64,000 nt of DNA from the NCBI RefSeq assembly GCF_000069785.1, contig NC_010530.1:2164001-2228000 (forward strand). The letters are read 5' to 3'. Source of the DNA: Cupriavidus taiwanensis LMG 19424. Its GTDB lineage: Bacteria; Pseudomonadota; Gammaproteobacteria; Burkholderiales; Burkholderiaceae. The notes below the pieces were generated by a model. That model was not told where the DNA came from, did not search any database, and worked only from the letters and a program-made list of their open reading frames with translations. The position numbers were made by a program, and so were the translations under genes. Of this stretch, positions 25,594 to 63,178 are shown piece after piece (positions within the stretch are counted from its first letter, which is position 1; each line of letters begins with the position of its first letter).

Positions 25594-27279
25594 TCAGCGC
25601 GGGGCGTTGGCCTCGCCTTGCCCTTCCCCGGCGAGCGCGGCGCAGCGTTGCGCCGCCTGCGCCAGCGAATCCGCGTAGTTGCCTTCTCCCAGCGCCGCCA
25701 GCACGCCGGCGCGCGCCAGCTTTTCCCTGACCCTCGCGTTGGCCTCGGCCAGCACTACCGCGACGCCGCGCTTCTGCAGCGTGACGATCACCGCCTCGAG
25801 CGTCTGCAGCCCGGTCATGTCCATGAAGGGCACGCGGCCCAGGCGGATCAGCAGCACGCGCGGCTCGGTATGGGTCTGCACCAGCGCTCGCTCGCAGGCC
25901 TCAACGGCACCGAAGAAGAACGGGCCGTCGATGACATAGACCAGCACGCCCGGCGGTATCGGCGCCACCGCGCCGGTGCCCGCGTCGTCCAGTTCGCGCG
26001 CAACGGCCTCGGCGGCCTGGGGTGCCACTTCCACCGCTGCCGACATGCGCCGCAGGAACTGCAGCATGGCCAGGATTACGCCGATATTGACCGCCACCAC
26101 CAGGTCGGTCAGCACCGTCAGCGTAAAGGTGATCAGCAGGATCGCGACATCGGCGCGCGGCGCGCGCCGGACCATGCGGGCGAACTGGCGCATCTCGCTC
26201 ATGTTGTAGGCCACCACGAACAGGATCGCGGCCAGCGCGGCCAGCGGCACGCTGGCCGCGAGCGGCGCCAGGAACAGCAGCACCAGCACCAGCGTGAGCG
26301 CATGCACCACGCCCGCCAGCGGGCTGTTGCCGCCATTGCGGATATTGGTGGCGGTGCGCGCGATCGCGCCGGTGGCGGCAAACCCGCCGAACAGCGGCGC
26401 CACCACATTTGCGATGCCCTGCCCCACCAGTTCCTGGTTCGAGTCATGCCGGGTGCCCGCCATGCCGTCGGCTACCACGGCCGACAGCAAGGACTCGATC
26501 GCGCCAAGCATGGCAATGGTGAAGGCAGGCCCGGCCAGCTCCAGCACGCGCGCCAGCGTGACCTCCGGCAGCGACGGCACCGGCAGGCCGCGCGGCAGGC
26601 CGCCGAAGGCCGTGCCGATGGTCGCCACGCCGTCGAAGCGGAACAGCGCCTGCACCGCGGTGGCCACCACCAGCGCCACCAGCGGGCCCGGCACGCGCCG
26701 CAGCCAGCGCACGCGCGGCGCGCCCACCACCAGCGCCAGGCTGCCCAGCGCCAGCGCGGTGGTGGCGGGGTGCCATTGCGGCAGCGCCTGCAGCAGGTGC
26801 CAGAGTTTTTCATGGAAATGCGCGCCGGCCACTGGCGGCAGCCCGAAGAAATCGCGCCACTGGCCGACGAAGATGATCACGCCGATGCCCGCGGTAAAGC
26901 CGACGATCACCGGCGCCGGAATGTAGCGGATCACGCCGCCCAGCCGCGTCAGCCCCATCGCCAGCAGGATCAGACCGGCCATCAGCGTGGCGATCTGCAG
27001 GCCATCGATGCCGTGGCGCGCCGTTACCGCGGACAGCACCACGATAAAGGCGCCGGTGGGCCCGGCGATCTGCACGCGGCTGCCGCCGAACAGCGACACC
27101 GCCAGCCCGGCGACGATGGCCGTGTACAGGCCCTGTTCGGGCTTGGCGCCCGAGGCAATCGCGAACGCCATTGCCAGCGGCAGCGCCACTACCCCCACGA
27201 TCACGCCCGACACCACATTCGGCAGCCAGTTGCCGCGTTGGAACAATCCGGCCAGCCGGGCTTCGCGTAGCGCAATCAT
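25594..27279 (-). CDS. SulP-family anion transporter with STAS domain
   Basis: A 561-residue inner-membrane transporter of the SLC26/SulP family: about 14 membrane-embedded segments beginning NWLPNVVSGVIVGVVALPLA, the family motif GLYTAIVAGLAVSLFGGSR, then a cytosolic STAS domain from about residue 440 (GVLVYVIDGPFFFGAVEACE ... PFMDMTGLQTLEAV). Members carry sulfate, bicarbonate or C4-dicarboxylates; bicarbonate and sulfate are both plausible here. It is convergent with the RHH gene and ends 1 nt from it. The opposite-strand reading of the same length is a shadow. Confidence 0.85.
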   Translation of the reverse strand: MIALREARLAGLFQRGNWLPNVVSGVIVGVVALPLAMAFAIASGAKPEQGLYTAIVAGLAVSLFGGSRVQIAGPTGAFIVVLSAVTARHGIDGLQIATLMAGLILLAMGLTRLGGVIRYIPAPVIVGFTAGIGVIIFVGQWRDFFGLPPVAGAHFHEKLWHLLQALPQWHPATTALALGSLALVVGAPRVRWLRRVPGPLVALVVATAVQALFRFDGVATIGTAFGGLPRGLPVPSLPEVTLARVLELAGPAFTIAMLGAIESLLSAVVADGMAGTRHDSNQELVGQGIANVVAPLFGGFAATGAIARTATNIRNGGNSPLAGVVHALTLVLVLLFLAPLAASVPLAALAAILFVVAYNMSEMRQFARMVRRAPRADVAILLITFTLTVLTDLVVAVNIGVILAMLQFLRRMSAAVEVAPQAAEAVARELDDAGTGAVAPIPPGVLVYVIDGPFFFGAVEACERALVQTHTEPRVLLIRLGRVPFMDMTGLQTLEAVIVTLQKRGVAVVLAEANARVREKLARAGVLAALGEGNYADSLAQAAQRCAALAGEGQGEANAPR

Positions 27280-30185: not shown

Positions 30186-30221
30186 GACTCCCAACTTGTC
30201 ATAACACGCTATGTCGATCCG

Positions 30222-31082
30222 ATGACCTTCCGGACCAACGCCTTGCCCGCCGACAGCGCCGCGGCAGCGCCGGCCTCCATGCCGACCCCGTTGCCGCTCT
30301 ACACGCAGATCAAGGACGCCTTGCGCGCCCGCATCCTGGACGGCACCTATCCGCCGCACCACCAGATGCCGTCGGAGAGCGAACTTGGCGCAAGCTTCCG
30401 CGCCAGCCGCATCACCGTGCGCCAGGCGCTGGGCGACCTGCAGAAGGAGGGCCTGATCTTCAGGATCCCCGGCAAGGGCTCCTTCGTCTCAAGGCCGCGC
30501 GCTTTCCAGAACGTGACCTCGCTGCAAGGCTTTGCCGAGGCGATGTCCGGCATGGGGTACGAGATCCTGAACCAGGTGCGCAGCCTCAAGCGCGTGCCTG
30601 CCAGCGGCCACGTTGCAGCGCAGCTGCGTCTGCGCGAAGGCGATCCGGTGGTGGAGATCCGGCGCGTGCGCCTGCTCAACCGCGAACCGGTGTCGCTGGA
30701 ACTCACCTGGGTGCCCGAGTCCGTCGGCCGCCGCCTGCTCAATGCCGACCTCGCCACGCGCGACATCTTCCTGATCCTGGAAAACGACTGTGGTGTAAGG
30801 CTCGGCCATGCCGACCTGAGCGTCGACGCCATCCTTGCCGACGACGAACTGACCCAGGCGCTGCGCATCGAGGAAGGCGCGCCGGTGCTGCGCATCGAAC
30901 GCCTGACCCACGACGCGCAAGGCACGCCGATCGACTACGAGTTCCTCTACTTCCGCGGCGACGCGTTCCAGTACCGGCTGCGCGCAGACCGGCACAAGGC
31001 CGCGCCCGCCACCAGCGCCAACCACACGGCAGGCCGCGCCCGGCCCCGCAAACCAGCCAGCAAGGGGAGGACCTCCGCATGA
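30222..31082 (+). CDS. GntR/HutC-family transcriptional regulator
   Basis: A 286-residue regulator with an N-terminal GntR winged HTH (PLPLYTQIKDALRARILDGT, then MPSESELGASFRASRITVRQ, LIFRIPGKGSFV) and a C-terminal UTRA ligand-binding domain as in HutC. The product ends in a basic Ala/Lys-rich tail. Its stop overlaps the ATG of the AprA-like gene (ATGA), so regulator and target are translationally coupled, and it most likely represses its own operon until an effector appears. The ATG at 30222 is chosen because upstream frame sequence lies within the promoter. Confidence 0.87.
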   Translation: MTFRTNALPADSAAAAPASMPTPLPLYTQIKDALRARILDGTYPPHHQMPSESELGASFRASRITVRQALGDLQKEGLIFRIPGKGSFVSRPRAFQNVTSLQGFAEAMSGMGYEILNQVRSLKRVPASGHVAAQLRLREGDPVVEIRRVRLLNREPVSLELTWVPESVGRRLLNADLATRDIFLILENDCGVRLGHADLSVDAILADDELTQALRIEEGAPVLRIERLTHDAQGTPIDYEFLYFRGDAFQYRLRADRHKAAPATSANHTAGRARPRKPASKGRTSA

Positions 31083-32881
31083 ATACCCTGACTCACGAAT
31101 ACGACATCGTTGTCGTCGGCGGCGGCACCGCCGGCCCGATGGCCGCGATCAAGGCCAAGGAACGCAACCCGGCGCTGCGCGTGCTGCTGCTCGACAAGGC
31201 GCATGTCAAGCGCAGCGGCGCCATCTCGATGGGCATGGACGGCCTGAACAATGCCGTGATCCCCGGCCACGCCACGCCCGAACAGTACACGCGCGAAATC
31301 ACCGTGGCCAATGACGGCATCGTCGACCAGTCCACCGTCTATGCCTATGCGCGCCACAGCTTCACCACCATCGAGCAGCTGGACCGCTGGGGCGTCAGGT
31401 TCGAGAAGGACGAGACCGGCGACTACGCGGTGAAGAAGGTCCATCACATGGGCTCCTATGTGCTGCCGATGCCCGAAGGACATAACGTCAAGAAGGTGCT
31501 GTACCGCCAGCTCAAGCGCGCGCGGGTCGAGATCACCAACCGCATTGTCGCCACGCGCGTACTGACGGACGCCACCGGCGCAGCCAGCGGCGTGATGGGC
31601 TTCGACTGCCGCACCGCGGACTTCCACGTGATCCGCGCGCGCGCCGTGATCCTGTGCTGCGGCGCGGCCGGCCGGCTGGGCCTGCCGGCCTCCGGCTACC
31701 TGATGGGCACCTACGAGAACCCCACCAATGCCGGCGACGGCTACGCCATGGCTTATCACGCCGGCGCGGCGCTGGCCAACCTGGAGTGCTTCCAGATCAA
31801 TCCGCTGATCAAGGACTACAACGGGCCCGCCTGCGCCTACGTGACCGGTCCGCTGGGCGGCTATACCGCCAACGGCAAGGGCGAGCGCTTTATCGAATGC
31901 GATTACTGGAGCGGCCAGATGATGTGGGAGTTCTACCAGGAACTGCAGGGCGGCAACGGCCCCGTGTTCCTGAAGCTGAACCACCTGGCCGAAGAGACCA
32001 TCCAGACCATCGAGACCATCCTGCACACCAACGAGCGCCCCAGCCGCGGCCAGTTCCATGTCGGGCGCGGCACCGACTACCGCAGGCAGATGGTAGAGAT
32101 GCATATCTCGGAGATCGGCTTCTGCAGCGGCCACAGTGCGTCAGGCGTGCATGTGAACGAGCGCGCCGAGACCACGGTGCCGGGCCTCTATGCCGCCGGC
32201 GACATGGCCGCGGTGCCGCACAACTACATGCTGGGCGCCTTCACTTATGGCTGGTTTGCCGGACAGAACGCCGCCGACTACGTGGCGGGCCGCGAGCTGC
32301 CCGAGGCCGATGCGGCGCAGGTCGCGGCGGAACGCGCGCGCGTGCTGGCACCGCTGGCCCGCGCCAGCGGCCTGCCGCCCGCGCAGGTGGAATACAAGCT
32401 GCGGCGCATGGTCAACGACTACCTGCAGCCGCCCAAGGTCACGCGCAAGATGGAAATCGGCCTGCAGCGCTTCGATGCCATCGCCGAAGACATCGGCCAG
32501 ATCCGCGCCGCCAACCCGCATGAACTGATGCGCGCGGTCGAGGTCATGGCCATTCGCGACTGCGCCGAAATGGCGGCGCGCGCCTCGCTGTTTCGCACCG
32601 AGAGCCGATGGGGCCTCTATCACCATCGCGTCGACTATCCGCAGCGCAATGACGCGGACTGGTTCTGCCATACACACCTGAGCAAGGATGCCGCCGGACG
32701 CATGGTCAGCCACAAGCGCGCGATCGAACCGTACATCGTGCCAGTGGCGGGCGACGACGCCACCGCCTACCAGCGGCTGCGCGTTGGCCGTGGCCAGGCT
32801 GTCCATCCCGGCACCGAAGCCCGCCCCGAAGCCCACACCGAATCCCGCACCGGACTTGCCACCGGCCTCGCTGCCGCCTGA
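31079..32881 (+). CDS. AprA/fumarate reductase-like flavoprotein
   Basis: A 600-residue FAD-dependent oxidoreductase of the succinate dehydrogenase/fumarate reductase/adenylylsulfate reductase alpha family. The dinucleotide-binding motif is IVVVGGGTAGPMAA (about 10-23), with the FAD-binding AVILCCGAAGRLG and the C-terminal GLYAAGDMA. The subfamily with a ferredoxin partner is commonly labelled AprA-like, but there is no sat (ATP sulfurylase), qmo or dsr gene here, so an APS reductase role is unsupported. Its partner is the ferredoxin 13 nt downstream. The last 30 or so residues (Pro/Glu/Ala/Thr-rich) look like a disordered tail. Substrate unknown. Confidence 0.8.
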   Translation: MNTLTHEYDIVVVGGGTAGPMAAIKAKERNPALRVLLLDKAHVKRSGAISMGMDGLNNAVIPGHATPEQYTREITVANDGIVDQSTVYAYARHSFTTIEQLDRWGVRFEKDETGDYAVKKVHHMGSYVLPMPEGHNVKKVLYRQLKRARVEITNRIVATRVLTDATGAASGVMGFDCRTADFHVIRARAVILCCGAAGRLGLPASGYLMGTYENPTNAGDGYAMAYHAGAALANLECFQINPLIKDYNGPACAYVTGPLGGYTANGKGERFIECDYWSGQMMWEFYQELQGGNGPVFLKLNHLAEETIQTIETILHTNERPSRGQFHVGRGTDYRRQMVEMHISEIGFCSGHSASGVHVNERAETTVPGLYAAGDMAAVPHNYMLGAFTYGWFAGQNAADYVAGRELPEADAAQVAAERARVLAPLARASGLPPAQVEYKLRRMVNDYLQPPKVTRKMEIGLQRFDAIAEDIGQIRAANPHELMRAVEVMAIRDCAEMAARASLFRTESRWGLYHHRVDYPQRNDADWFCHTHLSKDAAGRMVSHKRAIEPYIVPVAGDDATAYQRLRVGRGQAVHPGTEARPEAHTESRTGLATGLAAA

Positions 32882-32894
32882 AGGAAACATCGCC

Positions 32895-33140
32895 ATGGCC
32901 TACACCCCGCACGAAATCACCCAGCGCACCAGCGCGCCGGTGACCATCGACGAAGACAAGTGCATCGCCGACAAGGGCTGCACGATGTGCGTCGATGTCT
33001 GCCCGATGGACCTGCTGGCCATCGACCTGGCCAAGGGCAAGGCCTATATGCAGTTCGACGAATGCTGGTACTGCATGCCCTGCGAAAAGGACTGCCCGAC
33101 GGGCGCGGTGCGGGTCGAGATTCCGTACCTGCTGCGTTGA
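32895..33140 (+). CDS. Two-cluster ferredoxin, AprB-like
   Basis: An 81-residue ferredoxin with two [4Fe-4S] motifs: CIADKGCTMCVDVCP (C-x5-C-x2-C-x3-CP) and CWYCMPCEKDCP (C-x2-C-x2-C-x3-CP). The unequal first spacing (five residues) and the aromatic CWYC are as in the beta subunits of adenylylsulfate reductases, though this protein lacks the longer AprB C-terminal tail. It should shuttle electrons to or from the flavoprotein encoded immediately upstream. Cytosolic; no signal peptide. Confidence 0.86.
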   Translation: MAYTPHEITQRTSAPVTIDEDKCIADKGCTMCVDVCPMDLLAIDLAKGKAYMQFDECWYCMPCEKDCPTGAVRVEIPYLLR

Positions 33141-33180
33141 TTGCCAAGCTTCATGACCACAGCCCAACAGAGATAGCCCC

Positions 33181-34602
33181 ATGAGATCCTTTTCCAGCAT
33201 CCCTCTGCTGCTGGCGCTGGCCGCCGCCAGCGTGGCCGGCACAGCCAGCGCCGAAACCATCCGCGTCGCCATCGGCACGCAGGACACCACCATCAACTGC
33301 GCCACCGGCGGCCTGCTGATCCGCGAACTGAAGCTGCTCGACAAATACCTGCCGCGCACCGGCAAGTACAAGGACGTCAGCTACGACGTGCAATGGAAGA
33401 ACTTCACCTCCGGCCCGCCGCTGACCAACGAGATGGTGGCCGACAAGCTCGATATCGGCGCGATGGCGGATTTCCCCGGCTCGCTCAACGCCGCGGCGTT
33501 CCAGAAGGCCGGCAAGAAGAGCCTGTTTATCGCGCCGCTGTCAGGCAACGCCATCGGCACCGGCAACGGCATCGTGGTGCCCGCCGATTCCCCGGTCCAG
33601 TCGCTGGCGGAGCTCAAGGGCAAGACCATCTCGGTGCCGTTCGGCTCGACCGCGCACGGCATGCTGCTGCGCGCGATCAAGCGCCAGGGCTGGGACCCGG
33701 ACAAGGACGTGACGCTGGTGTCGCAGTCGCCCGAGGTCGGCGGCTCGGCGCTGCAGGCGCACAAGGTGGACGGCCACGCCAACTTCGTGCCGTTCCCCGA
33801 GTTGTTCGCGTTCCGCGGCTTCGCGCGCAAGATCTATGACGGCTCGCAGGCCGAGGCGCCCACCTTCCATGGCGCGCTGGTGAACGCGGATTATGCGCAG
33901 AAGTATCCCGAGATCGTGGTGGCCTACCTGCGCGCCGCCATCGAGGCCGACCGCCTGATGGCGGCGGAGCCCGAGAAATTCAGCGAACTGATTGCCAGGG
34001 TGACCGGCATCGACGCCGAGGTGGACTACCTGTTCCATGGCCCGCTCGGCCTGCAGAACCGCGACTACACCTGGAAGCCGGAGTACCGGCAGGCGCTGCA
34101 GACCTCGATCGAAACGCTGAAGCTGCTCAAGCGTACCGATGCCGACCTGAGCGCCGACAGCGTGATCGACGACCGCTACATCCGCGAAGCGTTCCGGCTC
34201 GAAGGTCTGGACTATGAGGCGCGCCTGAAGGCCTACGACAAGCAGCCCCTCGCGGCCCGGGACGCGGACACCGGCAAACCCATCGCCGAGCCAAGGCTGG
34301 CCGCGCAGCTGTGGCTGCGGGGCGAGCCCAGGGTGCGCGCCTATGCCTCGCCGGCGGCAGCGTTCGCCGCGCTCAGGCAGGCGGCAAAGGCCGGCACGCC
34401 GGCGCGCGTGCTGTATGTGCATGACCGCAATACCGGCCTGAAGCTGCTGGCCAGCAAGGCGTGGTATGTGCAGGACGGCAAGGGACAGGTCAGCGCCTTC
34501 CTGCTCAAGGGCTCCGCCGACGGCTGGGCCAGGGCCAATGGCGGCAAGGTGCGCGATTTCGCCGCAATCAGCGGCGCGGCCGTAGCCGTGGCCAGCAACT
34601 GA
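33181..34602 (+). CDS. ABC binding protein fused to a NosL-like domain
   Basis: A 473-residue periplasmic protein, far longer than the usual 320-340. A signal peptide ends at ASA (residue 24). Residues to about 350 form an NrtA/SsuA-type binding domain (MVADKLDIGAMADFPGSLNA, LKGKTISVPFGSTAHGMLL). From about 375 the tail (ARVLYVHDRNTGLKLLASKA ... ANGGKVRDFAAI) resembles the C-terminal part of NosL copper-binding lipoproteins: the x-YVHD-x-TG and GGKV-x-x-F patterns fit. The NosL copper motif itself is not visible. It precedes its permease by 16 nt. Ligand unknown. Confidence 0.75.
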   Translation: MRSFSSIPLLLALAAASVAGTASAETIRVAIGTQDTTINCATGGLLIRELKLLDKYLPRTGKYKDVSYDVQWKNFTSGPPLTNEMVADKLDIGAMADFPGSLNAAAFQKAGKKSLFIAPLSGNAIGTGNGIVVPADSPVQSLAELKGKTISVPFGSTAHGMLLRAIKRQGWDPDKDVTLVSQSPEVGGSALQAHKVDGHANFVPFPELFAFRGFARKIYDGSQAEAPTFHGALVNADYAQKYPEIVVAYLRAAIEADRLMAAEPEKFSELIARVTGIDAEVDYLFHGPLGLQNRDYTWKPEYRQALQTSIETLKLLKRTDADLSADSVIDDRYIREAFRLEGLDYEARLKAYDKQPLAARDADTGKPIAEPRLAAQLWLRGEPRVRAYASPAAAFAALRQAAKAGTPARVLYVHDRNTGLKLLASKAWYVQDGKGQVSAFLLKGSADGWARANGGKVRDFAAISGAAVAVASN

Positions 34603-34618
34603 TACCTGGAGCGCAACG

Positions 34619-35464
34619 ATGAGCGCAATCACGCTTGAAGCCGGGCCGCCCCCGGTGGCGCCCGCCACGGCCGGCGCGGCACGCGCCCGGCTGGCGCGCT
34701 GGCTGGTGCGCCTGGCCGCGCTGGCGAGCTGCATCGTGCTGTGGCAGCTGGCTTCGTCGCAGCGGGCCCACCTTGGCCTCGTCACCTTCGCCAACGTGCC
34801 CGCGCCCAGTGACGTCGTGCCGGCGGCCTGGCAGCTGCTGCAGTCGCCCAAGCTGGTGCTGCACCTGGGCAACAGCCTCTACCGCGTGTTTGCCGGCTTC
34901 GGCGCGGCGGCCGCGGCAGGCATCGTGCTCGGCATGGCCATCGGCCGCTCGCGCTGGCTGGAAGACCTGCTGCTGCCGCCGCTGGAGGTGCTGCGCCCGA
35001 TCCCCGGCGTGGCGTGGATTCCGCTGGCCATCCTGATGTTCCCGTCTTCGGAACTGAGCATGATCTTCATCACCTTCATCGGGGCACTGTTCCCGATCCT
35101 GCTCAATACCATCCACGGCGTGGAACGCACCGATCCGCGGCTGATCGCCACGGCGCGCAGCCTGGGCGCGCGCCGCTGGACCGTCTTCCCTGAAGTGCTG
35201 TTGCCCGCTGCCCTGCCCAGCATCGTCACGGGCCTGGCGATCGGCATGGGCACGTCCTGGTTCTGCCTGGTCACTGCCGAGATGATCGCGGGCCAGTACG
35301 GCATCGGCTACTACACGTGGGAGGCCTACAACCTGCAGAACTATGCGGATATCGTTGTCGGCATGCTGCTCATCGGCGCCTTCGGCATGGGCAGCAGCGC
35401 GCTGATCAAGCGCACCGGGGCGTGGCTGATGCCATGGACCCGCCTGCAGCAGGAGCGCGCATGA
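34619..35464 (+). CDS. ABC transporter permease, nitrate/sulfonate type
   Basis: A 281-residue permease with about six membrane segments and the EAA loop (LIATARSLGARRWTVFPEVL). The family moves nitrate, taurine or sulfonates. Its stop overlaps the ATG of the ATPase gene by 4 nt (ATGA), so the two subunits are produced together. It operates with the long binding protein at 33181-34602. Confidence 0.85.
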   Translation: MSAITLEAGPPPVAPATAGAARARLARWLVRLAALASCIVLWQLASSQRAHLGLVTFANVPAPSDVVPAAWQLLQSPKLVLHLGNSLYRVFAGFGAAAAAGIVLGMAIGRSRWLEDLLLPPLEVLRPIPGVAWIPLAILMFPSSELSMIFITFIGALFPILLNTIHGVERTDPRLIATARSLGARRWTVFPEVLLPAALPSIVTGLAIGMGTSWFCLVTAEMIAGQYGIGYYTWEAYNLQNYADIVVGMLLIGAFGMGSSALIKRTGAWLMPWTRLQQERA

Positions 35465-36267
35465 CCAGCCCACCGATCCGCGCGGGCCACCTGCAGGTGC
35501 GCGGCCTGGATGTGGCGCTGGGCCAGGGAGATGCCGGCTTTACCGCCGTACAACAGCTTTCCGTCGACATTCCCGCCGGGCAGTTCGTCTGCATCCTGGG
35601 CCCATCGGGCTGCGGCAAGTCCACGCTGCTGGGGGCCATCGCCGGCCACTTGCGGCCGGCGGCGGGCGAGATCCTGCTCGATGGGGCACCCGTGCGCGGC
35701 CCCGCGCCGGAGCGCGGGCTGGTATTCCAGCAGCACTCGCTGTTCCCATGGAAGCGCGTGCTCGACAACGTCGGCTTCGGCCTGAAGATGCAGGGCATGC
35801 CCGCCGCCGAACGCAGACGCGAGGCGCAGGCCCTGCTGGACCTGGTCGGCCTGGGCAGCTTCGCGCAGCGCTATCCCGCCCAGCTCTCCGGCGGCATGCA
35901 GCAGCGCGTGGAGATCGCGCGCGTGCTGATCAACCGGCCGCGCGTGCTGCTGATGGACGAGCCCTTCGGCGCGCTCGACGCGCAGACCCGCGCCCATATG
36001 CAGGCACTGCTGCTCGACGTCTGGACGCAGATGCGCACCACCGTGGTCTTTGTCACCCATGACATCGACGAGGCGCTGTTCCTGGCCGACCGCGTGCTGG
36101 TGATGTCTCAGCGGCCCGGACGCATTCTCGCGGATATCGCCGTCCCCTTCGAGCGGCCGCGCCGCGCCGAACGGATGACCGATGACGATTTCATCGGGCT
36201 CAAGCGCCGCTGCCGTGGCCTGCTGCATGACCACTCCCACGCCGGCGCACTCGCGGCTGGCGCCTGA
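35461..36267 (+). CDS. ABC transporter ATPase, nitrate/sulfonate type
   Basis: A 268-residue ATPase: Walker A GPSGCGKST at 47-55, signature LSGGMQQRVEIARVL, Walker [16 protein letters not shown]-loop VTHDIDEALFLADR. The ATG at 35461 overlaps the permease stop. The protein does not carry the extra C-terminal ligand-binding domain of NrtC-type ATPases. The HEAT-repeat gene follows after 26 nt. Confidence 0.87.
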   Translation: MTSPPIRAGHLQVRGLDVALGQGDAGFTAVQQLSVDIPAGQFVCILGPSGCGKSTLLGAIAGHLRPAAGEILLDGAPVRGPAPERGLVFQQHSLFPWKRVLDNVGFGLKMQGMPAAERRREAQALLDLVGLGSFAQRYPAQLSGGMQQRVEIARVLINRPRVLLMDEPFGALDAQTRAHMQALLLDVWTQMRTTVVFVTHDIDEALFLADRVLVMSQRPGRILADIAVPFERPRRAERMTDDDFIGLKRRCRGLLHDHSHAGALAAGA

Positions 36268-36293
36268 CTTCCATATCGACACGACTGCCCTCC

Positions 36294-37292
36294 ATGCCAC
36301 ACGCTCGCGCTTTGCCTGACCATTCCCTGTCGGAACCGGATCCCGCCATCGGCGCACTGGCGCTGCGTCTCTCCGACCCCGACCCCGCCGTGCGCCGCGT
36401 GGCGGTGCTGCAACTGGCCGACCTGGAAGACGAAGACGGCGTGCCGCTGCTGCTGCAGCGGCTGCAATCCGACCCGGCGCAGACCGTGCGCGCCGAGGCC
36501 GCGCGCACGCTGGCCAGCTGGGAACAGCATGCGGTGGTGCAGGCCCTGGCCGCCGCCCTGGCCGATCCCGTGCGCGAGGTCGCGCACGCCGCTGCGCAAG
36601 CGCTGTCAGAACTGAAAGACCCGGCTTCCGGCGCCGCCCTGCTGCCCTGGGTGACGCACGCCGACCCCTTTGTGCGCGCCTCCGCCTGGCGCGGCCTGCG
36701 CGAACTGCGCCATGCGGCCGGTTTCGACGCGGCCATGGCTGCCCTGTCCGACCCCGCCGCGCCGGTGCGGCGCGAAGCCGTGGGCGTGCTGGGCTGGCTC
36801 AGGCGCAGCGAAGCGCTGCCTGCGCTGGCCCGGGCCGCCACCGGCGACACGGATACCGAAGTGCGGCGCGCCGCCGCCGGCGCGCTCGGCCTGGCCGCCG
36901 ATCCGGCAGCGCGCGAGGCCTTGCTCGCGGCCTTGCGCGACGACGCCTGGCAGGTACGCGAAGAAGCCGCGCAGACGCTTGGAAAGCTGAAGTTCGCCGA
37001 GGCCGTGCAGCCTCTGATCCGCGCACTGGAAGACCCCTACTGGCAGGTGCGCCTGCAGGCCGCCAGGGCGCTGGGCAAGCTGCGCGACCGCGCCGCGCTG
37101 CAGCCGCTGGCGCTGCAGCTCGGCCACGCCATCAGCAACCTGCGCAAGGAGGCCGCGCTGTCGCTGGGGAGCTTGCAGGATCCCGCAGCGCTGGCAGCCC
37201 TGAGCGCCGTGGCAAACGATGCCGATCCGGAGGTACGCAAGGCCGTGCGCATTGCGCTGGCGCAGATCGGTACCCCACATGAGGCCGCGTGA
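36294..37292 (+). CDS. HEAT-repeat protein
   Basis: A 332-residue cytosolic protein built of about nine HEAT-like repeats of roughly 31 residues, each with the pattern AL-x-DPxxxVRREAxxxLGxL (for example SDPAAPVRREAVGVLGWLRR). No catalytic motif is visible. HEAT proteins of this sort act as scaffolds or as phycocyanobilin-lyase-like assembly factors. The gene overlaps the downstream DUF971 start (GTGA) and is coupled to it. It may assemble or chaperone the AprA-like/ferredoxin enzyme, which is an inference from gene order. Confidence 0.78.
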   Translation: MPHARALPDHSLSEPDPAIGALALRLSDPDPAVRRVAVLQLADLEDEDGVPLLLQRLQSDPAQTVRAEAARTLASWEQHAVVQALAAALADPVREVAHAAAQALSELKDPASGAALLPWVTHADPFVRASAWRGLRELRHAAGFDAAMAALSDPAAPVRREAVGVLGWLRRSEALPALARAATGDTDTEVRRAAAGALGLAADPAAREALLAALRDDAWQVREEAAQTLGKLKFAEAVQPLIRALEDPYWQVRLQAARALGKLRDRAALQPLALQLGHAISNLRKEAALSLGSLQDPAALAALSAVANDADPEVRKAVRIALAQIGTPHEAA

Positions 37293-37561
37293 GCATGCTG
37301 GTCCCGTTGCGGCTTGAGCTGGCGCCTGCCGAAGGGATGTTGCGCATCGACTGGCCGGATGGACGGCGCCAGTCACTGGATCATGCACGGCTGCGCCAGG
37401 CATGCCGTTGCGCCGGGTGCCGCAGCGGGCCGGTCGGGGCAGCCGTCGAGCCAGCGGTCCGCATCGTTGCGGTGCAGGACATGGGCTACGGCATCCAGCT
37501 CATCTTCAATGACGGACATGACCGCGGCATCTATCCATGGCGCTATCTCGAAGCGCTTTAG
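37289..37561 (+). CDS. DUF971/GBBH-like N-terminal domain protein
   Basis: A 90-residue protein matching the DUF971 (gamma-butyrobetaine hydroxylase-like N-terminal) pattern: LRIDWPDGRRQSLDHARLRQ-like opening, then LRQACRCAGCRSG with a C-x-C-x2-C metal-type motif, and the C-terminal GYGIQLIFNDGHDRGIYPW. The domain often accompanies Fe-S assembly proteins. The GTG at 37289 overlaps the HEAT stop; an ATG at 37295 is the alternative. Last gene of the operon. It may help metal-site maturation in the AprA-like complex; this is inference. Confidence 0.78.
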   Translation: MSMLVPLRLELAPAEGMLRIDWPDGRRQSLDHARLRQACRCAGCRSGPVGAAVEPAVRIVAVQDMGYGIQLIFNDGHDRGIYPWRYLEAL

Positions 37562-37630: not shown

Positions 37631-37891
37631 CTACCCGCCCGCCAGCGCCTGCAGGATATGCACTTCGTCGGTGTCCTGCAGCGGCGCATCCAGCCGCATC
37701 AGCTGGGTGCGGTTGACGAAGACACGGATATACGGCCGCAGCTTGCCCTGCTCGTCGACGATGCGAAAACGCATGCCGGGAAACTGGCGGTCGAGGTCGT
37801 CGAGCAGCTCGGCAATGCTGGCGCCGCGGGCCTCGACATATTCGCGCTGTCCGGTATAGGAGAAGAGCGGCGTCGCGATACGGACCTGCAT
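37631..37891 (-). CDS. MoaD/ThiS-like ubiquitin-fold sulfur carrier
   Basis: An 86-residue beta-grasp protein (MQVRIATPLFSYTGQREYVE) ending ILQALAGG. The terminal Gly-Gly is the hallmark of MoaD, ThiS and other sulfur carriers, whose C-terminus is adenylated by a ThiF/MoeB E1 and then thiocarboxylated. No E1 gene is present in this window. The gene lies 29 nt downstream of the BNR-repeat gene on the same strand, so the two form a pair. It is convergent with the AprA-like operon. Whether it supplies sulfur or is conjugated to protein cannot be told. Confidence 0.82.
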   Translation of the reverse strand: MQVRIATPLFSYTGQREYVEARGASIAELLDDLDRQFPGMRFRIVDEQGKLRPYIRVFVNRTQLMRLDAPLQDTDEVHILQALAGG

Positions 37892-37920
37892 GGGGAGTCC
37901 TCCGGAGCGGCGGCTGGCGC

Positions 37921-39078
37921 TCAGGCCGGGCGCGCCACGCTGACCGCGTAGATCTGCGGCAGGTTGCGGGCGATGCATTGCCAGGCCTCGCCTTCGTCCG
38001 CGCTGGCCCACAGTTCGCCGCCGGTGGTGCCGAAGTACACGCCCACCGGTGCGTGCCCGTCGGTGGCCATGGCCTGCCGCTTGACCGTGAACCAGCCCTG
38101 TTCGGCGGGCAGGCCGCGGTCCTGCCGCTGCCAGCTCTCGCCGCCATCGCGCGTGACATAGGCGGCGGGCCGGCCGCCCGGGCTGACGCGCGGCCACACA
38201 TCGCTGCCGTCCATCGGGAACACCCACACCGTGCGCGGATCGCGGCGGTGCGCGACGATCGGGAAGCCGATGTCGCCGACTTCCGCCGGCATCGCCTCGC
38301 CGATCCGCTTCCATACGCCTTCGCGGCGGTCCATCCGGTAGATGCCGCAATGGTTCTGCTGGTACAGGATGTCCGGGTTGGCGGGATGCTGCAGCATGCA
38401 GTGCGGATCCTGGCCGTATTCCGGGTTGGGGTCCGGCAGGAAGTTGGCGATGCTGCCACGGTTCAGCGGCTTCCAGTCGGCGCCGGCGTCGGTGCTCTCG
38501 AACACGCCGCCGCTGGACATGCCGATATACAGGTGGCGCGCGTCGCGCGGATCCACCAGCACGGAATGCAGCTTGGGACCATCGGGGGTGCCGTCCTGCT
38601 CGCCGCCGGTCCAGGCCCGCCACATCGGGTGGTCGTTGAAGCCGCGCACCGGCTCCCAGGTCGCGCCATGGTCGGCACTGCGGAACAGGCCCTGCGGCGA
38701 GGTGCCGGCGTACCAGGTGCCGGACTCGCTGGCATGGCCGGGCGTGAGCCAGAACACGTGGTCGACGACGCGGCCGGTCTCGCCCTCCGCCGCCTTGTCG
38801 AAGGCGGGCGGGCGCGCGGCCTCGGTCCAGTTGCGGCCGCCGTCGGTGGAACGGAACACAGTCGGGCCCAGGTGGCCGGTGCGCGCCGCCATCAGCAGGC
38901 GCGACGGGTCGCGCGGGTCCTGCACGATATGGTGGATGGTATGGCCGAGGAAGGTCGGGCCGTCGATCTGCCAGCTGCGGCGCGCGGCGTCGCTGGTCAG
39001 GAACCAGGCGCCCTTGGTGGTGGCCACCAGCAGCCGGACCGGGCCGGTATCCGTTTCGGGGGTCGGGGAAGTCGTCAT
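37921..39078 (-). CDS. BNR/YCF48-type beta-propeller protein
   Basis: A 385-residue protein with several BNR/Asp-box motifs (STDGGRNWTEA, SADHGATWEPV, STDAGADWKPL, RDGGESWQRQ, SADEGEAWQCI), so a beta-propeller like those of sialidases and photosynthetic YCF48. No signal peptide is visible, so cytosolic. The family is often annotated as glycosyl hydrolase without evidence. It has its own promoter at 39118-39146 and is followed by the MoaD-like gene 29 nt away, which suggests a functional pair. GCAGGAGCC precedes the ATG. Confidence 0.8.
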   Translation of the reverse strand: MTTSPTPETDTGPVRLLVATTKGAWFLTSDAARRSWQIDGPTFLGHTIHHIVQDPRDPSRLLMAARTGHLGPTVFRSTDGGRNWTEAARPPAFDKAAEGETGRVVDHVFWLTPGHASESGTWYAGTSPQGLFRSADHGATWEPVRGFNDHPMWRAWTGGEQDGTPDGPKLHSVLVDPRDARHLYIGMSSGGVFESTDAGADWKPLNRGSIANFLPDPNPEYGQDPHCMLQHPANPDILYQQNHCGIYRMDRREGVWKRIGEAMPAEVGDIGFPIVAHRRDPRTVWVFPMDGSDVWPRVSPGGRPAAYVTRDGGESWQRQDRGLPAEQGWFTVKRQAMATDGHAPVGVYFGTTGGELWASADEGEAWQCIARNLPQIYAVSVARPA

Positions 39079-48107: not shown

Positions 48108-49334
48108 TCAGCCCGGCTTGCCGTCCACGCGCGGGCGCGCCAGCCGCGGCGCATACGTCAGCGCGTAGAGGCCGAATCCCGCCACCCAGCACGCGCCCGC
48201 GCCCCACACCCAATGCAGGTAGCCGGCGGGCCAGGCCATCGGCCCGAACACCCGCAACACCGCCGCCGCGGCCACCAGCCAGTACGCCGCGGTCTCGGCG
48301 CGGCGGGCCACCAGCACGCGGCCGGTGTGGCCCAGCGCGGTGCGGGTGATCATGGCGATGATCGCCACCCCGAGCACGCCCACGGTGAAGGCGTGCGTCG
48401 CCAGCCCGGCCATCACCAGTCCCAGCGCACCGAGCGCCTGCAGCAGCAGCGCCAGCGGCAGCCACGCGTAGGCCAGGTGCAGCACCCACAGGATCGGCCG
48501 GTTGCCGACCGCATGACCGCGCCACCCCGCCACCCGAATGCCCAGCACCAGCGCGGCCAGCAGCGACAGTGCCGCCACCAGCCATGCGGGCACGGGCAGC
48601 AGCCCGGCCGCCAGCCCGAGCACCGCAGCGGGAATCACCAGCCGATCCACCTGCCGGTACTGGCGCAGCCGGAAGCCGGGAATCGCATTGGTGGTGAACA
48701 TCGGGATCACGCGCCCGCCGATCACCACCACGAACAGCGTCACCAGCGCCACGCCGGCGCGGCAGGCCAGCATCGCGCCGGCGTCATGGCCGCGCGCCTG
48801 CAGCCACAGGCTGGCGATATCGGCCAGCGCCAGCAGCCATAGCGCGAGCGCCAGCGGATAGTTGCGGCGATTGCCCCCGCGCACCAGCGTGCGCGTGAAG
48901 GCCAGCGCCGCCAGCGGCAGGAACGCGGCTTCGACCGCAAAGGCCGCAATACCGGGCACTACCCACAGGCCCACGCGTCCCGCCAGCCACAGCCCGAACA
49001 GCACGGCCAGCGCGGCGCCGGTCGGCGTCGGGTGCCCGGTCCAGGCCCGCCCGGCCGTGAACAGGAATCCCACCACGATGGCCGCGGCAAAGCCGAACAC
49101 CATCTCGTGCGCGTGCCAGAACATCGGCGGCAGTGCCGGTGGCGGCGCGAACGCGTGCATGCCCGCCAGCATCGCCGTCCACGCTGCCAGCGCCAGCGCG
49201 GCAAACACCGCGCCGCCCAGATAGAACGGACGGAACCCCAGCGCGAACAGGGCAAAGCCACGTGGCGGCGGGCCCGCGGGGGCCTGGCCGGAAGGCGGCA
49301 TGCGCCGCGCGGGAAGGATGGGAATGGTTTCCAT
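48108..49334 (-). CDS. nnrS: NnrS-family protein
   Basis: A 408-residue heme/copper-containing membrane protein of the NnrS family, about 12 hydrophobic segments. Landmarks are FALFALGFRPFYLGGAVFAA near the start, FWHAHEMVFGFAAAIVVGFL and VVIGGRVIPMFTTNAIPGF. In denitrifiers it is induced with NO metabolism and relieves nitrosative stress. It is divergent from narK1, so their intergenic region (49335-49565) probably carries an anaerobic regulator's sites. The ATG at 49334 (METIPILPAR) is preferred. Confidence 0.9.
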   Translation of the reverse strand: METIPILPARRMPPSGQAPAGPPPRGFALFALGFRPFYLGGAVFAALALAAWTAMLAGMHAFAPPPALPPMFWHAHEMVFGFAAAIVVGFLFTAGRAWTGHPTPTGAALAVLFGLWLAGRVGLWVVPGIAAFAVEAAFLPLAALAFTRTLVRGGNRRNYPLALALWLLALADIASLWLQARGHDAGAMLACRAGVALVTLFVVVIGGRVIPMFTTNAIPGFRLRQYRQVDRLVIPAAVLGLAAGLLPVPAWLVAALSLLAALVLGIRVAGWRGHAVGNRPILWVLHLAYAWLPLALLLQALGALGLVMAGLATHAFTVGVLGVAIIAMITRTALGHTGRVLVARRAETAAYWLVAAAAVLRVFGPMAWPAGYLHWVWGAGACWVAGFGLYALTYAPRLARPRVDGKPG

Positions 49335-49565
49335 GGCTGGGGAAGCGATCAGGGGCGGCGCGGGGTCGCCGCGGCAGCGCGAGGCGATGCGCCGCATCTC
49401 GTGCCCACGATAGCACCGCCGCGGCGCCGGCGACCTCCCCCGGTAGAACTACCTCCAAAGGCAGTCAACGCCAGCGCGCGCGCTGTGCTGCCGGCGAATA
49501 GGCAGCACCAGCGCCCGCCCCTACTCTGGCATCACCCCCGCCAAAGTTGACTCAGGAGCATGGCC
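49335..49565. promoter_or_regulatory. Divergent nnrS-narK control region
   Basis: This 231-base stretch carries the promoters of nnrS and the nar operon. It holds the dyad GGTAG-AA-CTACC (49442-49453), which includes a near-match to the NarL heptamer in inverted orientation, and an AGTCAA half-site (49462-49467). No full FNR box (TTGAT-N4-ATCAA) is present. Control by NarL and/or FNR is likely from biology but not proven by the sequence. Confidence 0.4.
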
Positions 49566-50846
49566 ATGGCCACCCAATCCCGCGCGCCGGACCCGATCCC
49601 GCCCGGCGCCGCCATCACGCTGGCGTCCAGTACTTTCGCCTTCACCATCTGCTTTGCCGTCTGGATGCTGTTCGCGGTCCTCGGCATTCCCCTCAAGCAA
49701 CAGCTCGGCCTCAACGACACCGAATTCGGCCTGCTCGCGGCCACCCCGGTGCTGAGCGGCTCGCTGATCCGCGTGCCGCTGGGGCTGTGGACCGACCGCT
49801 TCGGCGGCCGCATCGTGTTCTTCGTGCTGATGCTGGCCACCGTGATTCCGATCTGGCTGATCTCGTACGCGACCACGCTGTGGCAGCTGCTGGTGCTGGG
49901 GCTGTTCGTTGGCCTCGCGGGCGGCTCGTTCTCGGTGGGCACGCCTTACGTGGCGCGCTGGTTCCCGCGCTCGCGCCAGGGGCTGGCGATGGGCATCTTC
50001 GGCGCCGGCAACTCGGGCGCGGCGCTGACCAAGTTCGTCGCCCCGGCCCTGATCCTGGCGGCCGGCACCTGGACCATCGTGCCGCGCGTGTATTCGGTGG
50101 CCATGCTGGCCACCGCGCTGCTGTTCTGGGTGTTCTCGCGCAGCAACCCGGCGCACGTGGTCAAGTCCAGCGCCGGCTGGCGCGAGCAGCTGGCGGTGAT
50201 GCGCGACCCGCGCGTGTGGCGCTACTCGCAGTATTACTCGGTGGTGTTCGGCGGCTATGTCGGCCTGTCGCTGTGGATGACCAAGTACTACATCGGCGAG
50301 TACGGCTTCGACATCAAGGTGGCGGCCTTCCTTGCCGCGTGCTTTTCGCTGCCGGGCGGCGTGCTGCGCGCGATCGGCGGCTGGATCTCGGACCGCTACG
50401 GTGCCCATCGCACCACCTGGTGGGTGATGTGGGTGAGCTGGGTCGGCTTCTTCCTGCTCAGCTATCCGCAGACCGACTTCATCGTCCAGACCACCAGCGG
50501 CCCGCAGGCCTTCCGCATCGCGCTGACGCCCACGCTCTTCACCATCCTGCTGTTCGTGGTCGGCATCGCCTTCGCCATCGGCAAGGCCTCGGTGTTCAAG
50601 TTCATCTCCAACGACTTCACCCACAACATCGGCGCGGTCTCCGGCGTGGTGGGCCTGGCCGGCGGGCTGGGCGGCTTCGTGCTGCCGATCCTGTTCGGCA
50701 TGCTGGCCGACCTGACCGGCATCCGCAGTAGCTGCTTCATGCTGATGTACGGCACCGTGTGCGTGAGCCTGGTGTGGATGCACTACAGCCACCGCGCCGA
50801 ACGCCAGCGCAAGGCCCAGGCCGTCGGCCTGACCCAGCCCGCTTGA
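49566..50846 (+). CDS. narK1: Nitrate/nitrite transporter NarK1
   Basis: A 426-residue MFS nitrate transporter with 12 segments. It carries the nitrate signature GLAGGSFSVGTPYVARWFP (second half of NS1-like motif) and GVVGLAGGLGGFVLPILFG (NS2), with NarK1-type length. NarK1 proteins are usually the nitrate:proton symporter half. The ATG at 49566 follows CAGGAGC by 7 nt; the ATG at 49560 is an alternative. First gene of the nar operon, 62 nt before narK2. Confidence 0.9.
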   Translation: MATQSRAPDPIPPGAAITLASSTFAFTICFAVWMLFAVLGIPLKQQLGLNDTEFGLLAATPVLSGSLIRVPLGLWTDRFGGRIVFFVLMLATVIPIWLISYATTLWQLLVLGLFVGLAGGSFSVGTPYVARWFPRSRQGLAMGIFGAGNSGAALTKFVAPALILAAGTWTIVPRVYSVAMLATALLFWVFSRSNPAHVVKSSAGWREQLAVMRDPRVWRYSQYYSVVFGGYVGLSLWMTKYYIGEYGFDIKVAAFLAACFSLPGGVLRAIGGWISDRYGAHRTTWWVMWVSWVGFFLLSYPQTDFIVQTTSGPQAFRIALTPTLFTILLFVVGIAFAIGKASVFKFISNDFTHNIGAVSGVVGLAGGLGGFVLPILFGMLADLTGIRSSCFMLMYGTVCVSLVWMHYSHRAERQRKAQAVGLTQPA

Positions 50847-50908
50847 CACCGCACCGTGGCACCCACCCACGCGCGCCTCCGCGCATTCTTCATCAAGGCA
50901 CACTGATC

Positions 50909-52294
50909 ATGACCTCATCCGTACTCACCCGCTGGGAGCCCGAGAACGCGGCGTTCTGGCAAAGCAAGGGCGAGCGCATCGCCTACCGCAACCTGTGGAT
51001 CTCGATCCCGGCGCTGATGCTGGCCTTCGTGGTCTGGATGCTGTGGAGCGTGGTCGCGGTCAACCTCGACCGCGCCGGCTTCCAGTTCACCAAGAACCAG
51101 CTGTTCTGGCTGACCGCGCTGCCGGCGCTGTCGGGCGCCACGCTGCGCATCTTCTATTCCTTCCTGGTGCCGGTGTTCGGCGGGCGCCGCTTCACCGCGA
51201 TCTCCACCGCGCTGCTGCTGATCCCTGCACTGGGCATGGGCTTCGCGCTGCGCGACCCGTCCACCGGCTATCCCACGCTGCTGGTGCTGGCGCTGCTGTG
51301 CGGGCTGGGCGGCGCCAATTTCAGTTCGTCGATGGCCAATATCAGCTTCTTCTTCCCCAAGGCGAAGAAGGGACTGGCCACCGGGCTGAACGCCGGCATC
51401 GGCAATCTGGGCGTGTCGGTGGTGCAGTTCGTCACGCCGCTGGTGGTGTCGCTGGCGGTGTTCGGCGCGCTCGGCGGCGAGCCGCAGCAATACCAGGCCC
51501 ACGGCGCCACGCAGAACCTGTGGCTGCAGAACGCGGGCTTTGTCTGGGTGCCGTTCATCGTCGTGTCCGCCTTGGCCGCGTGGTTCGGCATGCATGACAT
51601 CGCCGATGCCAGGGCGTCGTTCGCCGAGCAGGCCGTGATCTTCAAGCGCAAGCACAACTGGCTGATGTGCTGGCTGTACGTGGGCACCTTCGGCTCGTTC
51701 ATCGGCTTCTCGGCCGGCCTGGCACTGCTGACCAAGTCGCAGTTCCCGGGCGTGAACCCGACCGCCTACGCCTTCCTGGGGCCGCTGGTCGGTGCGCTGA
51801 CGCGGCCCGTCGGCGGCTGGATCTCCGACAAGCTTGGCGGTGCGCGCGTCACGCTGTGGACCTTCGTCGGCATGATCGCGGCGGTGTTCGCCGTGCTGGC
51901 AGCGCTGCCGCACGACGGCACCGGCGGCAACTTCACGTGGTTCCTCGCGGCCTTCATCGCGCTGTTCGCGCTGACCGGCATCGGCAACGGCTCGACCTTC
52001 CGCATGATCCCGGTGATCTTCCTGACCGAGCGCCAGCGCGCCGCCAAGGGCAAGGGTGACGCCGCGCACCGCCAGGCGCTGCAGGAGGCCGGCAAGGAAT
52101 CCGCCGCGGTGCTGGGCTTTTCCGGTGCGATCGGCGCGTACGGCGGCTTCTTCATCCCCAAGAGCTTCGGCACCTCGCTGGAGCTGACCGGCGCGCCCGA
52201 CGCCGCGCTGTACTGCTTCATCGCCTTCTATGTCAGCTGCGTGCTGGTGACGTGGTGGTACTACGCGCGCCGCAACGCTCCCATGCCCTGCTGA
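50909..52294 (+). CDS. narK2: Nitrate/nitrite transporter NarK2
   Basis: A 461-residue NarK2-type MFS carrier that exchanges periplasmic nitrate for cytosolic nitrite. It starts MTSSVLTRWEPENAAFWQSK and keeps the conserved GLGGANFSSSMANISFFFP and GIGNGSTFRMIPVIF nitrate-signature segments. Longer than NarK1 owing to an extra cytosolic loop (about residues 375-395: ERQRAAKGKGDAAHR). The two paralogues in tandem match the narK1K2 arrangement of denitrifying proteobacteria. Confidence 0.9.
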   Translation: MTSSVLTRWEPENAAFWQSKGERIAYRNLWISIPALMLAFVVWMLWSVVAVNLDRAGFQFTKNQLFWLTALPALSGATLRIFYSFLVPVFGGRRFTAISTALLLIPALGMGFALRDPSTGYPTLLVLALLCGLGGANFSSSMANISFFFPKAKKGLATGLNAGIGNLGVSVVQFVTPLVVSLAVFGALGGEPQQYQAHGATQNLWLQNAGFVWVPFIVVSALAAWFGMHDIADARASFAEQAVIFKRKHNWLMCWLYVGTFGSFIGFSAGLALLTKSQFPGVNPTAYAFLGPLVGALTRPVGGWISDKLGGARVTLWTFVGMIAAVFAVLAALPHDGTGGNFTWFLAAFIALFALTGIGNGSTFRMIPVIFLTERQRAAKGKGDAAHRQALQEAGKESAAVLGFSGAIGAYGGFFIPKSFGTSLELTGAPDAALYCFIAFYVSCVLVTWWYYARRNAPMPC

Positions 52295-52311
52295 AGGCCT
52301 TGCCGGCCGGA

Positions 52312-52329
52312 CTAGTTCTTCGGAACTAG
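52312..52329 (+). other. UUCG tetraloop hairpin between narK2 and narG
   Basis: CTAGTTC-TTCG-GAACTAG is a perfect 7-bp stem closed by the extra-stable UUCG tetraloop, 18 nt after the narK2 stop. There is no T tract, so it may be a processing or mRNA-stability element or a partial terminator within the 187-nt narK2-narG gap rather than an operon end. Confidence 0.6.
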
Positions 52330-52481
52330 GCCCGCGCCGTGCACCTCCCCCGATCGCCATCCGGCGGCTGTTCCACCAGCGAATTGGCCGCCGCCCCGCT
52401 CCCCCATAAGCTCGAGGTGTCCCTGCAAACGCTCCCGCATGCGCCGGAGCGCCGCAGCAAAGCCTCGCGGAGAACAAGCAA

Positions 52482-56228: not shown

Positions 56229-56229
56229 C

Positions 56230-57780: not shown

Positions 57781-57807
57781 GCGCCCGCGAACGAACCGGA
57801 GAAGAAC

Positions 57808-58473: not shown

Positions 58474-58488
58474 CATGCCTGCGCGAGC

Positions 58489-58618
58489 CGATTGTGTTCT
58501 CCCCTCTCCCGCCTGCGGGAGAGGGGCGGGGGAGAGGGCGGGAGCTTCCACGAAGCGCCGGTGCTTAAACCACCCCTCACCCTGCCCTCTCCCCTGAGGG
58601 GAGAGGGGAACACAATCG
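58489..58618. repeat. Two-hairpin inverted repeat (BIME-like) in the narJ-narI gap
   Basis: The outer arms CGATTGTGTT (58489-58498) and AACACAATCG (58609-58618) are perfect inverses. Next to them are CCCCTCTCCC-type runs that form internal hairpins: CCCCTCTCCCGC/GCGGGAGAGGGG on the left (58501-58526) and CCCTCTCCCCT/AGGGGAGAGGG on the right. The same inner unit is found at 16131-16152 and, degenerate, at 25279-25294. This is a composite repeat of the REP/BIME kind inserted inside an operon. Confidence 0.7.
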
Positions 58619-58669
58619 ACGGAGACACGCACGCACGCCCTTGCTGCCCACTTATCGAGCTAACACACC

Positions 58670-59353: not shown

Positions 59354-59380
59354 ACGCCGCTACCCGACAAGGAGAATCCG

Positions 59381-60133: not shown

Positions 60134-60148
60134 CGCCCGGAGGCCGCC

Positions 60149-60856: not shown

Positions 60857-60860
60857 CCCC

Positions 60861-61421: not shown

Positions 61422-61432
61422 TCGCCACATGA

Positions 61433-63178
<1,746 letters not shown>

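Follow-up and report, generated by a model that had tools for sequence, protein, structure and literature searches.

The operon and the question it raises

What does a flavoprotein resembling adenylylsulfate (APS) reductase do when it is encoded with its own ferredoxin and with an importer? This question is raised by eight plus-strand genes at 30222..37561 of a 64,000-nucleotide (nt) stretch of Cupriavidus taiwanensis LMG 19424 DNA (contig NC_010530.1, positions 2,164,001 to 2,228,000; hereafter the window), which sits on contig 3 of a genome of three contigs. A sequence-only reading had taken them for an uncharacterised operon with an AprA-like flavoprotein and a two-cluster ferredoxin. Both points were borne out; the gene order recurs in many genera, and the flavoprotein/ferredoxin pair is backed by profiles, a tree and two 4-Cys motifs in the ferredoxin. 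We found that the operon is real, widespread and probably misnamed, a variant of the flavoenzyme/ferredoxin pair of APS-reductase type that is combined with sulfonate-type import. Our best explanation is that it may be a self-contained reductive system using an imported organosulfur compound as sulfur source, which we favour tentatively and would not call probable. Organosulfur use in some form, which would include an AsfAB-like alternative, is fairly probable.

All eight open reading frames (ORFs), in the order GntR, flavoprotein, ferredoxin, binding protein, permease, ATPase, HEAT and DUF971, were present on one strand with the small gaps or 4-nt overlaps claimed for them. From 5′ to 3′ the junctions are -4, 13, 40, 16, -4, 26 and -4 nt, i.e. 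three 4-nt overlaps with the rest at 13-40 nt. Pfam and NCBIfam back the class of all eight products. The features are as follows.

30195..30208, + strand: putative GntR operator, CTTGTCATAACACG, a palindrome that deviates from CTTGTN4ACAAG at one position, lying 13 nt ahead of the GntR start
30222..31082, + strand: GntR/UTRA (HutC-type) regulator (PF00392 and PF07702; no NCBIfam cut-off reached)
31079..32881, + strand: AprA-clan flavin adenine dinucleotide (FAD) flavoprotein of the NF006131 / PRK08275 family (1144.3 bits against a cut-off of 587; tree; active-site comparison)
32895..33140, + strand: 8-Cys two-[4Fe-4S] ferredoxin, AprB/HgcB-like (Fer4_7; TIGR02060 aprB 39.5 bits, under cut-off)
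33181..34602, + strand: periplasmic binding protein with SsuA/TauA-like and NosL-like domains (profile scores and predicted folds)
34619..35464, + strand: ATP-binding cassette (ABC) permease, SsuC/NtrB class (PF00528; NtrB 151.7, SaoP 145.3 and SsuC 143.6 bits, all under cut-off)
35461..36267, + strand: ABC ATPase, TauB/SsuB/NtrCD class (PF00005; TauB best, 250.9 bits, under cut-off)
36294..37292, + strand: HEAT-repeat protein (PF13646; NF010374 positions 657-896, E 2e-29)
37289..37561, + strand: DUF971 (GBBH-like_N) protein (PF06155, 76.8 bits)

In line with the earlier reading, neither sat, qmo or dsr genes nor aprBA were found among the 30 window ORFs scanned, which are part of the window's genes (in one subset, 10 of 20 ORFs matched no family). 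The window's genome gave no AprA match at E <= 1e-100.

Distribution and constant core

Contigs were scanned with the flavoprotein; there were at least 592 relatives, of which the best 80 were kept. The ferredoxin gene was present in all 80, HEAT and GntR in 78 each, DUF971 in 64 and a dedicated binding protein in 44. Both loci without HEAT end at a contig end, and at least 4 of the 16 loci without DUF971 are cut short. A second set comprised 103 loci longer than 9 kb, some incomplete at their ends; it held the ferredoxin 103 times, HEAT 100, GntR 91, DUF971 81, the ATPase 66, the permease 63 and the binding protein 61 times. The constant core is the flavoprotein, the ferredoxin and the HEAT protein. 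Because the binding protein is present in only 61 of the 103 long loci, the importer is an optional module, absent or placed after HEAT in some loci. The earlier claim of a dedicated importer is supported, with an importer of the sulfonate/taurine/nitrate class, but not as a constant part of the operon, since no dedicated binding protein was seen in 42 of the 103 long loci (some cut short) and 36 of the best 80.

Retention of the gene order beyond this strain had been set beforehand as a test, and the order indeed recurs in Burkholderia, Paraburkholderia, Pseudomonas, Acinetobacter and others; Ralstonia and others have the same order without the importer. The named proteins nearest to the flavoprotein (95-97%) all come from Cupriavidus. 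In genome samples, the family was found in 15 of 60 genomes from the genus of the window (one partial), in 65 of 199 from the genus Pseudomonas at E <= 1e-40 (three with the gene in pieces) and in 21 of 398 Pseudomonadota species at E <= 1e-150. Plasmid matches with 58-86% identity came from Acinetobacter, rhizobia, methylobacteria, Acidithiobacillus caldus, cyanobacteria and actinobacteria. The family thus reaches from Pseudomonadota to cyanobacteria and actinobacteria under a database name that is probably wrong.

The version on a Nostoc plasmid (L086:8940-21665) is arranged differently. A sulfonate-type binding protein lies directly 5′ of the flavoprotein, five other genes separate the flavoprotein from the genes for the ferredoxin and HEAT, and nearby are metX and a gene of the O-acetylhomoserine sulfhydrylase type.

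Phylogenetic position and active site of the flavoprotein

The flavoprotein passes the NF006131 cut-off, but it falls far below those of TIGR02061 aprA (176.5 against 641.75 bits) and the sdhA_frdA model (167 against 567 bits). Its best solved-structure match by sequence is the alpha subunit of the 3′-phosphoadenylylsulfate (PAPS) reductase (PAPSR) of M. thermolithotrophicus, at 201.6 bits. We built a tree of 40 rows, in which PAPSR was represented by its aligned stretch only. Several outgroup branches were very long and false joins are possible, so we relied only on the clade of the family and on its place on the AprA side. The 17 family flavoproteins formed one clade (100/99), sister to eight AprA, PAPSR and an unlabelled sequence, L120. 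SdhA, NadB, FrdA-like proteins and the probable AsfA lay on the opposite side of the tree from the AprA-side clade. The family therefore does not group with any enzyme of known substrate among the characterised proteins against which it was placed.

L120 (L120:7950-9635, minus strand), which joins AprA on a long branch, and L121:6917-8923 (minus strand) are two more AprA/SdhA-clan flavoproteins, from a genome of the same order (G033); one has its own small ferredoxin. Other FAD proteins of about 550 amino acids (aa) in the genus were rejected as relatives; they belong to FrdA-like clusters and have no small two-cluster ferredoxin.

The active-site alignment covered 102 loci, some of them duplicates. 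AprA residues Trp234 and Arg265, which we take to be part of the active site, are kept in all eight AprA and in PAPSR. They were replaced by Tyr212 and Leu243 in 102 of 102 aligned loci. Conversely, N57 and H352, the counterparts of AprA N74 and H398 and presumably near the FAD, were invariant in the 102 loci, and all eight AprA have Asn and His there. Y212, E213, N214, C237, C252 and C349 are also invariant in the family. The retention of N57 and H352 together with an invariant Tyr212 and Leu243 fits an AprA scaffold with a different substrate. The name given by the database, fumarate reductase/succinate dehydrogenase, is probably wrong for the family.

Compared with AprAB and the M. thermolithotrophicus enzyme (PDB 1jnr/2fja, 8a8o), the operon has the same layout of a same-clan FAD subunit and a two-[4Fe-4S] ferredoxin subunit, and its flavoprotein also retains the counterparts of N74 and H398 and, towards the C-terminus, the R-E-RW...Y...D residues. 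It differs from AprAB in the separate clade, in the two invariant replacements and in a ferredoxin shorter than AprB, and HEAT, importer, GntR and often DUF971 stand in place of sat and qmo.

Ferredoxin, electron supply and partner proteins

The ferredoxin scored 39.5 bits against a TIGR02060 aprB cut-off of 135.65, and its PDB matches include AprB and PAPSR beta, neither among the best. A ferredoxin-NADP reductase gene lies beside the core in 10 of the 103 long loci and an FdxA gene in nine, all of distant relatives (Variovorax, two further relatives of the window at the level of order or genus, and genomes from a different class of the same phylum). For these counts, and for those of luciferase, TauD, CRP and SsuA below, the queries were drawn from some of the counted loci. 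Two FdxA proteins tested passed the curated cut-off of 135 with 175 and 157 bits; three reductases resemble PRK10926 at 150-176 bits, under its cut-off of 390. These genes beside the core suggest an electron flow from reduced nicotinamide adenine dinucleotide phosphate (NADPH) to the FAD, and hence a reduction. Neither gene was seen in loci close to the window, so the donor there would be encoded elsewhere.

The match of the HEAT protein is to the C-terminal portion of PRK13800 (NF010374), a model for a fusion of flavoprotein and HEAT, and such a fusion occurs in Tsukamurella, where one 893-aa protein has the FAD part at 15-390 and HEAT repeats at roughly 650-860. This fusion ties HEAT to the enzyme, so we guess that it is more likely a structural partner of the flavoprotein than an assembly factor. 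DUF971 probably helps in cluster or cofactor maturation, which is again a guess. A role of DUF971 as an Mrp partner found no support, since the Mrp/NBP35 protein of the Nostoc locus has no DUF971 domain. On the Tsukamurella plasmid (L087:15233-19519), genes annotated as nucleotidyltransferase, ThiF, Mov34/JAB and SAVED-domain proteins, names that suggest a CBASS-like set, lie about 2.6 kb or further past the fused gene.

Importer and two-domain binding protein

The binding protein has an SsuA/TauA-like domain at about residues 24-336 and a NosL-like domain at about 355-465. The predicted model of the N-terminal domain has the SsuA/TauA fold, and the protein scored 122.2 bits against an SsuA_fam cut-off of 163.5. 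In the fold search with the predicted model, CmpC, NrtA and CmpA scored at or near SsuA. By profile, the binding protein and the ATPase are closest to sulfonate/taurine models and the permease is closest to NtrB. The importer therefore resembles SsuABC/TauABC in the predicted fold and class of its binding protein and in the classes of its permease and ATPase; it differs in that its proteins stay under the curated cut-offs and in the extra NosL-like domain.

The C-terminal domain showed the NosL fold when its predicted model was folded alone; NosL was absent from the fold-search matches of the whole binding protein. Against PF05573 (cut-off 24) the last 100 residues scored 23.0 bits and the last 181 scored 22.0. 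NosL binds metal through conserved Cys, Met and His. No Cys, Met or His occupied an invariant or nearly invariant column in an alignment of 25 of these NosL-like sequences.

Regulator and putative operator

The motif CTTGTN4ACAAG, with at most one mismatch, was found upstream of 87 of 106 distinct GntR copies, exactly in 57; about 0.15 per 106 would be expected in random 160-bp stretches from the same loci. Genome-wide, a stricter pattern with one mismatch gave 15 sites in eight genomes against three for a reversed-pattern control. The site was unique in three of these genomes (G008, G015 and G258), and the other five hold one or two further sites. This enrichment and the small number of genome-wide sites suggest that GntR is most likely a local regulator of the operon; it would act as a repressor. 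LysR-like matches within 2.8 kb upstream were found, with two query sequences only, in 3 of 131 loci, each of which also has GntR.

Possible association with sulfur metabolism

Of the 21 genomes that have the flavoprotein, 18 also have SsuD, compared with 50 of the 377 that lack it; the catA control was found in 4 of 21 and 23 of 377, respectively, both comparisons being uncorrected for phylogeny and genome size. A luciferase-type monooxygenase gene lies near 9 of the 103 long loci and TauD near five (queries from two counted loci). A further SsuA-class binding protein occurred in the flanks of 13 of the best 80 loci, and 4 of 4 such proteins tested passed the SsuA_fam cut-off.

Several results weigh against a link to organosulfur compounds. 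We attempted to explain the importer-less loci by a standard SsuABC replacing the missing importer, and this was not supported: the additional SsuA-class protein was present in 7 of 36 loci without the dedicated importer and 6 of 44 with it (P = 0.55, queries from both groups). An earlier count of 7/42 against 1/61 (P = 0.007) had used queries only from importer-less loci. The flanks contained 262 ORFs picked by a GC-position heuristic, of which 198 were scanned, together with three from L122 that were added after two of them had already been seen to be a luciferase-type monooxygenase and TauD. Among these 201 ORFs the raw tally, taken without a background, was five Bac_luciferase (one from L122), two TauD (one from L122) and three Cys_Met_Meta_PP. 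The two flank scans, which covered 110 and 91 proteins from among those picked, showed no frequent family, and many matches bear no relation to sulfur. In addition, a CRP/FNR-type regulator (one protein checked) lies near 9 of the 103 long loci, eight of which have no GntR.

Proposed function and alternatives

In the reductive system that we propose, the SsuA/TauA-type binding protein and the ABC importer would bring in an organosulfur compound, for which a sulfonate or some other X-SO3 compound is most likely; in genomes without the module some other importer would supply it. The earlier suggestion of an organosulfur substrate is in this way upheld as the most likely class. In the cytosol, electrons would pass from NADPH through ferredoxin-NADP reductase and an FdxA-type ferredoxin to the two-cluster ferredoxin of the operon, and from there to the FAD. 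The AprA-clan flavoprotein would reduce the imported compound and release sulfite or a more easily processed product, with HEAT as its structural partner and DUF971 probably aiding maturation of a cluster or cofactor. GntR, bound to its operator, would repress the operon until a small ligand is present. If this reductive route to organic sulfur is real, it would be an unrecognised step in soil sulfur cycling and would show the APS-reductase scaffold turned to new substrates.

A more specific form, which we regard as rather doubtful, is that the flavoprotein is a ferredoxin-dependent reductive desulfonase. By analogy with APS reductase and APS, N5 of FADH- would attack the sulfur of an organosulfonate, sulfamate or S-sulfonate and free sulfite without oxygen. 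An FAD-N5 sulfite mechanism has been proposed for PAPSR, in which the proposed catalytic residues are said to be retained in the part of that paper available to us (PMC10322725). If the desulfonase exists, aerobes would hold an oxygen-independent alternative to SsuD and TauD, and the sulfonate-binding/NosL-like fusion protein would deliver its substrate.

An alternative that keeps the organosulfur link, and that we consider unlikely, is that the flavoprotein and ferredoxin supply a sulfonate oxygenase, whose gene lies elsewhere, with electrons; this role has been proposed for AsfAB. AsfAB has a role in arylsulfonate use according to the accessible part of the literature (PMC4267179). AsfRABC of P. 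putida S-313 and asfRAB of C. metallidurans likewise have a flavoprotein-ferredoxin pair near sulfonate-family binding protein/ABC genes, although their regulator is described as LysR (AsfR) and the operon here has GntR. The asfABC order is flavoprotein, ferredoxin, binding protein, which is also the order in the operon. The co-occurrence of SsuD and the luciferase-type (9) and TauD (5) genes in the 103 loci would also suit this alternative. Against it, no oxygenase is constantly linked to the loci, and the AprA-type flavin-site residues with the invariant Y212, E213, N214, C237, C252 and C349 resemble a substrate pocket of the flavoprotein's own. The probable C. metallidurans AsfA also belongs to another subfamily, with 23% identity to the operon flavoprotein over 430 columns (E 1e-9) and 56 bits to NF006131.

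The probable AsfA/AsfB are a flavoprotein and a two-cluster ferredoxin gene with a 4-nt overlap (L188:7881-9862, minus strand) beside an SsuA-type ABC cluster. They were assigned as probable Rmet_4334/5, at whose expected place they lie, from gene-number spacing (PMC2864759). No LysR gene was seen beside the pair, so its identity as AsfAB is our inference. No HEAT or DUF971 match was found beside it, although the operon has both. We rejected the idea that the operon is itself asfABC: the probable C. metallidurans genome (G249) has no orthologue of the flavoprotein, only three matches (SdhA, NadB and an FrdA-like protein), and its probable AsfA is of a different subfamily. As the probable pair is also a flavoprotein and ferredoxin beside an SsuA-type ABC cluster, AsfAB is a good functional analogue, probably separate from the operon pair to judge from that AsfA. 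The accessible parts of PMC3506598 and PMC4070957 only cite the asfA work, and that of PMC9694294 uses asfA as a marker.

It is also rather unlikely that the system reduces a non-sulfur import, such as a nitrate-like oxyanion, an anion resembling bicarbonate or a small anion that is nitrogenous or aromatic. The NtrB-like permease, the fold scores of CmpC, NrtA and CmpA, which equal or approach those of SsuA, and the CRP/FNR-type regulator where GntR is mostly missing would all agree with it. However, the flavoprotein is sister to the sulfur enzymes AprA and PAPSR, the SsuD co-occurrence exceeds that of catA, and the binding protein and ATPase are nearest to sulfonate/taurine models.

Assimilatory reduction of APS or PAPS, as by the M. 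thermolithotrophicus enzyme, would explain the two-subunit layout shared with that enzyme and the best solved-structure match, but it is very improbable, given that the family forms its own clade and has an invariant Tyr and Leu where PAPSR retains Trp234 and Arg265, that the aprA and aprB cut-offs are missed and that the operon genes include neither sat nor an APS kinase. A fumarate reductase/succinate dehydrogenase can hardly be right in spite of the NCBIfam name 'fumarate reductase/succinate dehydrogenase flavoprotein subunit', since SdhA, FrdA-like proteins and NadB fall outside the AprA-side clade, the sdhA_frdA cut-off is missed, the flavoprotein is paired with a small ferredoxin and no membrane anchor subunit is encoded in the operon.

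The general idea of organosulfur use by this family is already in print. On the Acidithiobacillus (Fervidacidithiobacillus) caldus plasmid pTcM1 we found the same family, with GntR, a 69% identical flavoprotein, ferredoxin, HEAT and FdxA; its ABC genes are further away on the opposite strand, and no DUF971 is listed or matched. The plasmid cargo is described as 'ferredoxin/APS reductase/GntR' with a TauT-type sulfonate transporter, and organosulfonate assimilation is predicted for it (PMC12375680); the accessible part of that paper reports no experiment and does not mention the separate clade, the electron chain, the NosL-like fusion, the HEAT fusion or the operator. The sequence-only reading knew of no described pathway with this full composition. 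That stands for the whole operon, of which no description was found in the open-licence literature, and gives way where the A. caldus prediction and the similar AsfAB are concerned. The accessible parts of PMC13352529 (dimethyl-sulfide) and PMC8305402 (P. phymatum nodule) contain no evidence on the operon.

Neighbouring genes

A SulP-family anion transporter gene (25594-27279, minus strand; DauA 492.8 and sulP 367.7 bits, both under cut-off) lies about 3 kb upstream of the operon. The window also contains denitrification genes at 48108-63178, including NnrS (48108-49397), a NarG-type nitrate reductase (52482-56228) and a cytochrome cd1 nitrite reductase (61502-63178). Convergent with the operon are genes for a MoaD/ThiS-like ubiquitin-fold protein and a BNR-repeat protein (37631-39078, minus strand), a pair that among the 103 long loci occurs beside the operon only in the close relative L001.

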